Origin: Clostridiales bacterium
GTDB lineage: Bacteria > Bacillota > Clostridia > Christensenellales > Borkfalkiaceae
Reading direction: 5' to 3'
DNA length: 64,000 nt
Assembly (NCBI GenBank): GCA_015055655.1
Contig: SVHW01000001.1
Location: 141,465 to 205,464, forward strand
Shown: in pieces, positions 13,271 through 58,087 of the stretch
How positions within the stretch are numbered: the stretch's first letter is position 1
Layout of the letters: every line of letters begins with the position of its first letter
Program-made: the position numbers and the translations under genes
Notes under the pieces: model-generated
Told to the model about the DNA's origin: nothing
Seen by the model: only the letters and a program-made list of their open reading frames with translations
Databases searched by the model: none

Positions 13271-13533
13271 GCAAAAGCACCCCCTAAGGGGTGCTTTTTT
13301 GGTGGATGCGAGAGCGTTTTGATGCATAGCATCAAGGCAGCGCTACGCTCGCACGAACCGCGGAGGTTCTCGCCTATTTCGCGCAACGCAAAAGCACCCA
13401 TCGCGGGGTGCTTTTTTGGTGGACGCAAGAGCGTTTTGATGCATAGCATCAAGGCAGCGCTACGCTCGCACGAACCGCGGAGATTCTCGCCAATTTCGCG
13501 CAACGCAAAAGCACCCCTCGCGGGGTGCTTTTT
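13271..13533 (-). repeat. Tandem 117-bp tRNA-Val-associated terminator repeats
   Basis: Two complete 117-bp units (13271-13387 and 13388-13504) plus a third terminator (13505-13533) lie directly 3' of tRNA-Val. Read on the minus strand, each unit has a GCACCCC/GGGGTGC hairpin with a U-run, then GCGAGAA, then a T-arm-like GGTTCG followed by TGCGAGCG. Next come a fragment like the tRNA-Val anticodon arm (AGCGCTGCCTTGAT), a perfect hairpin TTGATGC-TAT-GCATCAA, and a copy of the tRNA 3' end with CCA. The hairpin at 13271-13301 also serves as plus-strand terminator for the PadR gene. No protein is encoded. Confidence 0.85.
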
Positions 13534-13610
<77 letters not shown>

Positions 13611-16674: not shown

Positions 16675-16688
16675 TAAATTAAACAATT

Positions 16689-17018
16689 TGAGCCTGTCTG
16701 TAAGCCGAGTTCTGTCGTGTACGGTCATTTATCTAGGCTTGCCGTCACCGACAAGCTCGAGCGATATTCACGGTATCCGTCGGACGGACAGCCCTATATG
16801 ACGGAAACCCAATCTTGCAGCGGGTGGGGTTTACATTGCATACCTTGTTACCAAGATATCGGTGAGCTCTTACCTCGCCTTTCCATCCTTACAACGCAAA
16901 GCGTTGCGGTTTATTTCTGTTGCACTTTCCTTAAAGTCACCTTCACCTGACGTTATCAGGCACCCTGTCCTGTGCTGCTCGGACTTTCCTCATCGTCTAA
17001 AAGACGCCGCGACCGTAT
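16689..17018 (-). ncRNA. rnpB: RNase P RNA (M1 RNA)
   Basis: The minus strand contains the universal core GAGGAAAGTCCGAGC near the 5' end and ACAGAACTCGGCTTACAG near the 3' end. These pair in the conserved P4 region, and the intervening length of about 330 nt is typical. It is the catalytic RNA that matures tRNA 5' ends. A TATAAT -10 box lies at 17041-17046, and a strong terminator follows at 16631-16674. End positions are approximate. Confidence 0.93.
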
Positions 17019-17159
17019 AACAAACTCAAATTGTATTTATATTATACCACTTAATTTCAAAAAAATCACGCATTTCTCTTGCTTTTTTATGAAAAATATA
17101 GTAAAATTTATGTTAGATTTTATTTTTTACACTTTGTGTAAAAAGCATCGGAGAAAAGT

Positions 17160-47460: not shown

Positions 47461-47622
47461 TAATATTATAGCATATATAATTAAAATATGGAAACAAATT
47501 AAGGCAAGATGTTAAAATTTTTTTTATCGCGTGAAAAAATAACATTTTTTTGTGATTTTTTTTAAAAATAAAAATAAATGAAAATTTTTGCGAAAATTTT
47601 GGAAAAAGTTGCGAAAAGTGTT

Positions 47623-47650
47623 TGACAATTTAATTTAATAATGCTATTAT
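47623..47650 (+). promoter_or_regulatory. Promoter of the six-tRNA operon
   Basis: TTGACA (47623-47628), 16 nt, TATTAT (47645-47650), about 40 bp before tRNA-Gly. The 47461-47622 stretch before it is A/T-rich, and I see no other feature in it. Confidence 0.7.
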
Positions 47651-48151: not shown

Positions 48152-48227
48152 GGATGATTAGCTCAGTTGGTAGAGCAACTGACTCTTAATCAGTGGGCCC
48201 AGGGTTCGAGTCCCTGATCGTCCACCA
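48152..48227 (+). tRNA. tRNA-Lys (CTT)
   Basis: A 76-nt cloverleaf with CCA. The acceptor GGATGAT/ATCGTCC pairs with one T-G wobble. The anticodon loop CTCTTAA gives CTT. Its T-arm and 3' end are the source of the fragments repeated downstream. Confidence 0.94.
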
Positions 48228-48916
48228 GCAAAAGAACACCCCTTGTGGGTGTTCTTTTGCTGTGGAAACATCATAGCGAGAAACCTGCGAATTATCCAGG
48301 GTTCGCGCGAGCGAGCAATAACGATAATTTTCATTTTTTACGTTATAGTTGGTTGCGAGCGAAGCTTTGAGCGTAGCGAAAGCCCCCTGATCGTCCACCA
48401 GCAAAAGAACACCCCTTGTGGGTGTTCTTTTGCTGTGGAAACATCATAGCGAGAAACCTGTGAATTATCCAGGGTTCGCGCGAGCGAGCAATAACGATAA
48501 TGTACATTTTTTACGTTATAGTTGGTTGCGAGCGAAGCTTTGAGCGCAGCGAAAGCCCCCTGATCGTCCACCAGCAAAAGAACACCCCTTGTGGGTGTTC
48601 TTTTGCTGTGGAAACATCATAGCGAGAAACCTGCGAATTATCCAGGGTTCGCGCGAGCGAGCAATAACGATAATGTCCATTTTTACGTTATAGTTGGTTG
48701 CGAGCGAAGCTTTGAGCGTAGCGAAAGCCCCCTATCGTCCACCAGCAAAAGAACACCCCTTGTGGGTGTTCTTTTGCTGTGGAAACATCATAGCGAGAAA
48801 CCTGCGAATTATCCAGGGTTCGCGCGAGGGAGCAATAACGACAACATCCATTTTTTACGTTATAGTTGGTTGCGAGCGAAGCTTTGAGCGTAGCGAAAGC
48901 CCCCTATCGTCCACCA
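48228..48916 (+). repeat. Four tandem ~173-bp tRNA-Lys-associated terminator modules
   Basis: Units lie at 48228-48400, 48401-48573, 48574-48744 and 48745-48916 (173, 173, 171, 172 bp). Each starts with the hairpin GCAAAAGAACACCCC/GGGTGTTCTTTTGC and carries GCGAGAA. Each then has CCAGGGTTCG, identical to the 5' half of the tRNA-Lys(CTT) T-arm, followed by an insert of about 79 nt opening with CGCGAGCG and closing with GAGCGTAGCGAAAGC. Each ends with CCCTGATCGTCCACCA (G missing in the last two), a copy of the tRNA 3' end. Periods are not multiples of three, so the spurious frames seen here are not genes. Confidence 0.9.
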
Positions 48917-48957
48917 AGAAAAAAAGAGTATGGATGCGCTCCATACTCTTTTTTTTA
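48917..48957. terminator. Bidirectional terminator between the tRNA modules and upp
   Basis: AAGAGTATGGA/TCCATACTCTT is flanked by an A-run on the left and a T-run on the right. It ends the tRNA operon on the plus strand and upp on the minus strand. Confidence 0.88.
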
Positions 48958-51430: not shown

Positions 51431-51462
51431 AAAAAAGAAAACCCATCGAAAAGACGGGTTTT
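51431..51462 (-). terminator. Riboswitch expression-platform terminator
   Basis: AAAACCCGTC/GATGGGTTTT with a UUUUUU tail on the minus strand. The 5' arm ACCCGTC can instead pair with GATGGGT (51474-51480) at the end of the aptamer, giving an antiterminator. This predicts an OFF switch. Confidence 0.8.
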
Positions 51463-51469
51463 GCGCGCG

Positions 51470-51560
51470 TATTACCCATCCTCCAAGCTTTAGCACCTTG
51501 CCCAACGGGTAGGTTGCTGTGTAGTCAACGGGCTTGTCCCTCGTACACTCTTTATGGTGT
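51470..51560 (-). ncRNA. SAM-family riboswitch (SAM-I/IV-like variant)
   Basis: The minus-strand leader carries the S-box-type core in order: GAGGGACAAGCCCGTTGA, then CAGCAACCT, then AAGGTGCTAAAGC. These match GAGGGA..GCCC..TGA, GCAACC and AGGTGCTAA of SAM-I and SAM-I/IV riboswitches. The terminator and alternative antiterminator follow directly. The closing P1 stem is short and imperfect, as in variant classes. It controls the 80-residue gene at 51152-51394. Confidence 0.8.
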
Positions 51561-57815: not shown

Positions 57816-57910
57816 TATATCACCTCTTATACATATTATAACGAAAATTCAAATTTTGTCAATAGGCAAAAACGCAACCTTGCTACACGAACGTTTAATT
57901 CTTCCGCGCG

Positions 57911-57975
57911 ATGCACGTATCTCGTTCGTCGCGCGCACACCCGATAACACGGGAACTCTCGCTCTTGCGCTCATA
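57911..57975 (-). repeat. Degenerate tRNA-downstream module after tRNA-Gln
   Basis: Beyond the tRNA-Gln terminator the minus strand carries GCGAGAG, then TATCGGGTGT, which matches the tRNA-Gln T-arm 5' half TTCGGGTGT, then GCGCGCGACGAACGAG. The order matches the tRNA-Val and tRNA-Lys modules. No copy of the tRNA 3' end follows, and there is no tandem repeat. The rest of 57816-58012 shows nothing else. Confidence 0.4.
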
Positions 57976-57976
57976 C

Positions 57977-58013
57977 AAAAACACAGCACACCGTTTTGAT
58001 GTGCTGTGTTTTT
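57977..58013 (-). terminator. Terminator of tRNA-Gln (CTG)
   Basis: The 14-bp arms AAAAACACAGCACA and TGTGCTGTGTTTTT directly adjoin the tRNA 3' end on the minus strand. Confidence 0.82.
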
Positions 58014-58087
58014 GGCTGGGGCGAAGTGATTCGAACACCCGAATGACGGAGTCAGAGTCCGTTGCCTTACCGCTTGGCGACGCCCCA
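58013..58087 (-). tRNA. tRNA-Gln (CTG)
   Basis: A 75-nt cloverleaf with encoded CCA. The acceptor TGGGGCG/CGCCCCA is paired. The anticodon stem ACGGA/TCCGT encloses CTCTGAC, giving CTG. Confidence 0.94.

Follow-up and report, generated by a model that had tools for sequence, protein, structure and literature searches.

Tandem units behind tRNA genes of a Clostridial genus copy the 3' end of their own tRNA and are laid out like the E. coli RtT repeats

Why should an intact tRNA gene be followed by four tandem repeats, each carrying pieces of that same tRNA? The question arises in a 64,000-nucleotide stretch of a Clostridiales genome (the window, by which we mean the whole of the DNA analysed). 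A first-pass annotation of this DNA had described four tandem tRNA-Lys modules with a split T-arm, spaced at periods of 173/173/171/172, each with an insert of about 79 nt that interrupts the T-loop and is followed by the tRNA 3' end with CCA, and had concluded that the array is not a protein repeat. All of this was upheld when we mapped the locus, and the unit coordinates agree with the periods. The features are as follows:

47622..47650, + strand: promoter-like site TTGACA-17 nt-TATTAT with TG before the second hexamer; 11/12 consensus matches, a consensus match only
48152..48227, + strand: intact tRNA-Lys (CTT), last gene of the cluster tRNA-Gly, Arg, His, Gln, Lys(TTT), Lys(CTT)
48228..48400, + strand: unit 1, 173 bp, by sequence comparison
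48401..48573, + strand: unit 2, 173 bp, by sequence comparison
48574..48744, + strand: unit 3, 171 bp, by sequence comparison
48745..48916, + strand: unit 4, 172 bp, by sequence comparison
48228-48260, + strand: hairpin of unit 1, which folds as a perfect 14-bp stem
from 48261, + strand: antisense-like stretch of unit 1, imperfect and not significant
48281-48287, + strand: AAACCTG of unit 1, a partial complement of the 5' T-stem strand, by eye
48296-48305, + strand: T-arm copy CCAGGGTTCG of unit 1
48306-48384, + strand: core of unit 1, 79 nt, between TTCG and the regenerated 3' T-stem strand
48385-48400, + strand: 3' T-stem strand, acceptor strand and CCA of unit 1
48918..48956, + strand: intrinsic-terminator-like hairpin with eight T at the array end, by a terminator rule

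The sequence CCAGGGTTCG occurs at 48199, within the intact tRNA-Lys, and again at 48296, 48469, 48642 and 48813, while ATCGTCCACCA occurs at 48217, 48390, 48563, 48734 and 48906. Each unit runs from the 14-bp hairpin (units 2-4 begin with the same letters as the hairpin of unit 1) through the antisense-like stretch, an AATTATC turn and CCAGGGTTCG to a 79-nt core that opens with CGCGAG, and closes with the regenerated 3' end and its CCA. In the intact tRNA-Lys the rest of the T-loop comes directly after TTCG, so the core of a unit sits inside the T-loop, after tRNA position 57. The four units are 95.4-97.7% identical in pairwise comparison, and Tandem Repeats Finder reported the array with a score of 1326, a period of 173 and 4.1 copies. 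An assembly artefact is an unlikely source of the array, since the copies differ by substitutions, the flanks of the array are unique, and the same design is found in sister genomes and in E. coli K-12.

The earlier annotation had also given each unit its own terminator. When the terminator rule was applied to the + strand of the array, the last hairpin (48918-48956), whose sequence is unlike that of the four unit hairpins, alone qualified; none of the four internal hairpins did (0/4), almost no free T following their stems. The term is thus supported for the last hairpin and is doubtful for the four internal ones. This pattern suggests that the six-tRNA cluster, upstream of which the promoter-like site at 47622-47650 lies, and the four units may share one transcript. 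A promoter search of the opposite strand of the array returned four 9/12 matches, repeated because the array itself repeats.

By eye, the Lys units also contain an imperfect antisense version of the tRNA 3' end (TGTGGAAACATCA), although it was not significant in an ungapped test, and in a gapped comparison 14/71 control tRNAs scored as high. Folding of the four units was only weakly better than that of shuffled sequences (z -1.27, -2.65, -1.55 and -1.52); a further stretch, L231, was offset from its element and is left out of this comparison. We refer to the form found in the window, in which the core follows the TTCG of the T-arm copy, as type A. Since type-A units fold only weakly better than shuffles, the structural case made below rests on a second core, type B, and on the common layout rather than on the window's own core.

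Two further loci in the window, neither of which had been annotated before, contain units behind other tRNAs:

13534..13610, - strand: intact tRNA-Val (GAC), host of the second array
13300..13533, - strand: two 117-bp units behind tRNA-Val, same design
58013..58087, - strand: intact tRNA-Gln (CTG)
57862..57976, - strand: degenerate unit behind tRNA-Gln, by eye, extent approximate

The tRNA-Val unit consists of a hairpin, GGCGAGAATCTCCGCGGTTCG, a core (TGCGAGCGTAGCG...) and the regenerated end GCGTCCACCA, with GCATCCACCA as the end of the second unit; its antisense copy is significant (0/70 controls as high in the gapped comparison). The degenerate tRNA-Gln unit has a T-arm-like GGGTGTGCGCGCGACGAACGAG and no regenerated 3' end. 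It was not significant in the ungapped test, and in the gapped comparison its sense score was reached by 3/71 controls and its antisense score by 43/71.

The same design recurs behind further tRNAs of the source genome (G000; 1.38 Mb, 96.7% complete, 18 contigs), whose upp protein has its best relatives in MAGs named Clostridiales or Clostridia, several of them from ruminant gut. At tRNA-Glu of this genome the array lies upstream of the tRNA and consists of longer tRNA copies interrupted by a core: the start of contig C16 (L054) carries, behind a TTGATA-17-TATACT promoter-like site seen by eye, three copies at a spacing of about 139 bp, all with the interruption in the T-loop. Contig C1 starts with a similar tRNA-Glu piece followed by an intact tRNA-Glu, and C1 and C16 may adjoin. 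Upstream arrays with the core in the T-loop are also present at tRNA-Arg in one sister genome (G027) and, by eye, in another genome (G007). A further core, type C (L199, L216 and L035), interrupts copies of tRNA-Glu and tRNA-Arg between the D-arm and the anticodon arm and has the loop TTGATAA in common with core B, both by eye. Counted by eye, there are at least three core types in the genus.

To measure how common own-tRNA copies are, we searched the 400 nt downstream of every terminal tRNA for matches to its final 40 nt; stretches behind tRNAs for other amino acids served as the control. The sample comprised three genomes of the genus, the source genome and the sisters G027 and G035, with 74 terminal tRNAs among 117 tRNAs. 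A significant sense copy of the tRNA's own 3' end was found downstream of 42 of the 74 terminal tRNAs at the 5% level, where about four were expected (15/23 in the source genome, 11/26 in G035 and 16/25 in G027); the remaining 32 of the 74 in these three genomes had no significant sense copy. Significant antisense copies lay downstream of 29/74, again with about four expected at the 5% level. Exact copies of the last 12 nt were present downstream of 22/74 terminal tRNAs and in 2/1640 control pairs, which excludes chance as the origin of the sense copies; in one of the 22 cases, tRNA-Glu of G035, the copy belongs to a further complete tRNA gene. Which tRNAs host units, and how many, varies between species. 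For tRNA-Lys there are four units in the source genome and at least one full unit in G027, and the array of G035 lies about 2.6 kb from the gene, behind inserted DNA.

The synteny of tRNA-Lys and upp is not kept in relatives: 80 upp loci yielded 13 tRNAs in 12 loci, one of which had a copy of its last 14 nt downstream with 2 mismatches and the others none. A distant search of a plasmid collection with the Lys array gave no match. The short pattern GKTTCRYGCGASNR proved a weak tool, with 147 matches against 92 for the reversed control in 36 relatives of the same genus, 16 against 58 in 24 genomes of other families, and 20 against 6 in the source genome. A class-wide sample of 391 genomes contained the longer pattern GGTTCGCGCGAGGAGCGA, with 1 mismatch allowed, in a single member, the source genome itself. 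Among open-licence papers screened by title and the start of the abstract, we found no description of these Clostridial arrays.

The closest parallel that we found is the RtT RNA (RF00391) of E. coli. We examined these 178-bp repeats of the E. coli tyrT operon in K-12. Behind tyrV there are three of them. In every one, 19 nt of the tRNA-Tyr 3' end are copied exactly, and there is an antisense stretch matching the tRNA 3' arm, and a T-arm copy with the core after it. The Rfam RtT hits in K-12 cover one unit each, and a fourth unit lies between tyrT and tyrV. In the plasmid collection, units of the RtT type number one to five per record among the matches listed (8 of 24 records). Like the Clostridial units, RtT stands behind a tRNA gene, in tandem, and regenerates an exact 3' end with CCA (19 nt, three times); its antisense stretch (GGGGAAGGAT...CTTCGA) and T-arm copy AAGGTTCG are arranged as in the Clostridial layout, and its core occupies the same place in the T-loop, give or take a base. 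The E. coli unit folds better than shuffles with a z of -2.02. The Clostridial units thus show the whole RtT layout of antisense 3' end, T-arm copy, core in the T-loop and regenerated CCA end, with the antisense part significant at the 29 terminal tRNAs counted above and at tRNA-Val of the window, and not at the Lys array.

The likeness is nevertheless one of layout. The Clostridial units differ from RtT in having tRNA genes of many kinds as hosts and at least three core types, and in that a terminator-like hairpin stands between the tRNA and the unit at most of the loci read (by eye). Since an intrinsic-terminator-like hairpin precedes many of the units, these could be transcribed only by read-through. 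No Clostridial unit in the window reached the RtT gathering threshold (45 bits), a search of the loci L219, L220, L225 and L241 up to E 5 gave no match on a Clostridial unit, and none of four genomes (0/4) had a match over the cut-off. The only sub-threshold match in those genomes up to E 1 (G031; 20.1 bits, E 0.17, not significant) falls on a unit behind tRNA-Val. Judged from their sequences, the Clostridial units are built like RtT and are not classed as RtT.

For RtT itself, one study reports Northern-blot detection of RtT RNAs at Asn and Lys tRNA genes of Actinobacillus and links them to amino-acid limitation (PMC4986893), and another describes an E. coli mutant that lost RtT together with one tRNA gene of the tyrT operon (PMC12584984). 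The alternative that the first-pass annotation had offered for the Lys modules, a family of tRNA-derived small RNAs, appears to fit best. Our preferred reading is that they are RtT-like RNA units tethered to tRNA genes, amplified by recombination and matched to their own tRNA, with the Lys array as one locus of a genome-wide class; we regard this reading as about evenly balanced between right and wrong.

Could such arrays instead arise without any function? Fold-back template switching at the hairpin behind the tRNA might produce both the antisense and the sense copies of the tRNA end, slippage or unequal crossing-over might multiply them, and template-switch repair might keep the inverted repeats perfect. 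Many loci do show the order sense, hairpin, antisense, sense that such events would leave, and at tRNA-Ser(CGA) of the source genome there is an extended inverted repeat (TGGCGCAGAGAAAG). A truncated antisense stretch seen by eye after the last hairpin of several loci fits this view as well, as do the variation of unit copy number between species and the weak folding of the window units. We nonetheless consider a functionless by-product rather unlikely, given what it leaves unexplained in the type-B cores: conserved loops and covariation over the genus, retention at the same tRNA kind in different genomes, and an excess of G-T over A-C.

The evidence on these points comes from a type-B model built from ten hand-picked elements of the source genome, G027 and G035, with 39 pairs. 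Of 57 genomes of the genus, including the three that had supplied the model, 48 contained 1 to 8 matches each at E 0.001 and 9 contained none; with stricter filters, this model (R1) matched only 3 of the 391 class-drawn genomes, all of the same family. We aligned 32 matches from the 30 best loci, an alignment that is fitted to the model and hence leans towards the structure. In it, 97.1% of cells are paired, 18 of the 39 pairs changed on both sides, and the loops are conserved. The covariation of 0.247 exceeds that of shuffles (0.095; 0/500 as high) and also that of slid controls. Outside helix 2 we counted 10 G-T cells, 1 A-C and 26 A-G (non-pairing), and one pair of helix 2 is U-G in 30/32 sequences. 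The G-T over A-C excess points to an RNA of the tRNA strand, although the relatedness of the sequences weakens this argument. Type B had no Rfam match over threshold. An RNA nature appears likely for type B and plausible for type A.

Position ties the type-B elements to tRNA genes. Within 1.5 kb upstream, 22 of the 32 matches have a tRNA on the same strand, and 19 of these 22 begin 50-57 nt after its CCA. The other 10/32 have no tRNA in the stretch examined, of which 6 still end in a regenerated 3' end with CCA; one of the tRNA-less matches, in G031, lies behind a copy of the tRNA-Pro end in which unrelated sequence gives way to the tRNA at TTCAAG, as at an insertion's far junction. In type B, the T-loop and 3' T-stem strand of the host tRNA are present both as an antisense and as a sense copy, and these two form the outer helix. 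At sites that differ between orthologous tRNAs, the sense copy follows its own tRNA in 8/8 comparisons and the antisense copy in 10/12, these being ordered pairs of few sequences and not independent. This agreement suggests that the flanks are kept in step with the tRNA, either by selection on pairing or by conversion.

The cores carry a signal of descent. For the 28 of 32 cores that could be assigned to a tRNA (4 were dropped), cores from different genomes were 81.5% identical when they belonged to the same tRNA (27 pairs) and 68.0% when they belonged to different tRNAs (324 pairs), cores of different tRNAs within one genome were 66.7% identical (24 pairs), and 0/1000 label permutations gave a difference as high. 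Because cores at the same tRNA are more alike than cores in the same genome, type-B elements appear to descend with their tRNA, with no sign of recent hopping.

We compared the units with several other known systems. The start of the type-B core, GAGGGTGGGAGCCG, resembles the T-box antiterminator motif AGGGUGGNACCGCG. Unlike in a T-box, the base after UGG in the B core does not track the discriminator base of the tRNA (by eye), and the core lies after tRNAs and not before genes; an Rfam search of five loci up to E 5 gave no T-box match, and we rejected an identity with T-box leaders. The intergenic mosaic repeats (BIMEs) of enterobacteria are likewise short, structured and non-coding, and one study includes rtT-like members among them (PMC2965389). 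The BIMEs treated there stand upstream of various protein genes, in contrast to the 22/32 type-B matches behind a tRNA gene. A REP/RAYT system was also considered and rejected: the Y1 transposase (PF01797) had no match in the source genome or G035, one in G027 and two in G031.

The first-pass annotation had also suggested a tiny element moved by an integrase. In this reading the units would be non-autonomous integrative cassettes: a tyrosine recombinase would place each one in the T-loop, which would restore the tRNA 3' end, and tandem integration would build the arrays. A junction in the T-loop, a known position of tyrosine recombinase integration, and a regenerated 3' end are indeed shared with tRNA-targeting integrative elements. 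The last hairpin, moreover, is unlike the unit hairpins at tRNA-Lys, Thr-CGT and Thr-GGT, as if an original terminator had been displaced. The units here, however, are gene-free, measure about 100-300 bp and in many cases contain an antisense copy, and neither antisense nor T-arm copies are expected of an att site. A search of the source genome for the tyrosine recombinase that such an element would use returned one PF00589 protein (open frame 365 aa) and no cognate enzyme. This protein is probably Xer, judging from its Xer-like size; similar recombinases of 371 aa and 370 aa are present in G027 and G035, and PF00589 counts are one, one and 8 in the source genome, G027 and G035, respectively. 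Across 57 genomes, the number of type-B elements did not correlate with the number of tyrosine recombinases (Spearman 0.10, p 0.47), nor did it in the 13 genomes at least 90% complete (-0.29, p 0.34). The lack of correlation argues against an integrase by-product, as does the inheritance of B cores with their tRNA.

At two tRNA genes, tRNA-Lys of G035 and tRNA-Pro of G031, foreign DNA has apparently entered. What is repeated at the far junction is the intact tRNA, beginning at the T-loop, rather than an interrupted unit. Taken together, these observations leave the cassette explanation improbable in our view. In the G035 locus (L206, contig C11), an insert of about 2.6 kb separates tRNA-Lys from the unit array and carries a second copy, TTCGAGTCCCTGATCGTCCACCA, at its far end. 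By eye, a gene in this insert reads like an IS3-family transposase, and the contig has no PF00589 match.

Apparent insertions in tRNA genes of the genus also raise the idea of genome defence, in which copies of tRNA ends would protect against mobile elements with target sites in tRNA genes, either as decoys or as partners in recombination. The source genome and G027, both rich in units, do have one tyrosine recombinase each, and G035 has 8. Type-A units, however, lack an intact T-loop, and both junctions seen repeat the intact tRNA. The correlations given above, neither of them significantly negative, argue against defence too, and we give this explanation almost no weight.

Under our preferred reading of tRNA-tethered, RtT-like RNA units, a complete unit would have three parts: a reverse-complement copy of a portion of the 3' arm of its host tRNA, then a core, then the same 3' arm copied in direct orientation with CCA. 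In RNA the two copies could pair into an outer helix that carries the core. The units would be read in the tRNA direction by transcription past the tRNA, as their position and orientation and the failure of the Lys hairpins under the terminator rule suggest, and by analogy with E. coli they might be cut out as small RNAs during tRNA 3'-end processing. Direct repeats of the 3' end and the hairpin would allow arrays to grow and shrink by unequal recombination, consistent with the differing copy numbers, and concerted evolution would keep both copies matched to their own tRNA, as seen for type B at a few informative sites. We speculate that the units act as mimics of the tRNA end, with a part either in the processing of tRNAs or in how the cell responds when amino acids run short.

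More broadly, RtT and the Clostridial arrays might represent one general bacterial strategy, in which a transcribed, tRNA-specific mimic of the 3' arm, kept matched by concerted evolution, feeds back on the processing, charging or stability of that tRNA. We offer this idea tentatively and think it more doubtful than the reading on which it builds. If it is correct, the strategy would be in use at over half of the terminal tRNA genes of the three genomes compared, with several exchangeable structured cores. So far the E. coli tyrT repeats have seemed a peculiarity of a single operon, and their role has been uncertain; here the RtT layout is found again at many tRNA genes in a distant genus, with each unit copying the local tRNA. 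This recurrence provides many natural replicates for asking what the units do and suggests that arrays of this kind may lie hidden in other genomes, in part at contig breaks. If expressed, the units would amount to a large RNA set in which every member matches one tRNA.

Several contigs of the source genome (C1, C3, C11, C12, C15 and C16) have an end within or close to an array of tRNA units, which may make such arrays a recurrent cause of breaks in assembly. A tandem repeat of another kind (CGTCAGGGCAAGGCTATTTCGTCCACCGTTGC..., with CAAGTCCGCCA or CAAGCCCACCA at its end) is present at tRNA-Ala GGC (L027) and at positions 46500-50075 of contig C3 (L292); in the latter stretch, in which we found no tRNA, it is mixed with type-B elements. 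Elsewhere in the window, Rfam recognises an ordinary SAM riboswitch (51440-51560, - strand) and an ordinary class A RNase P RNA (16685-17028, - strand).
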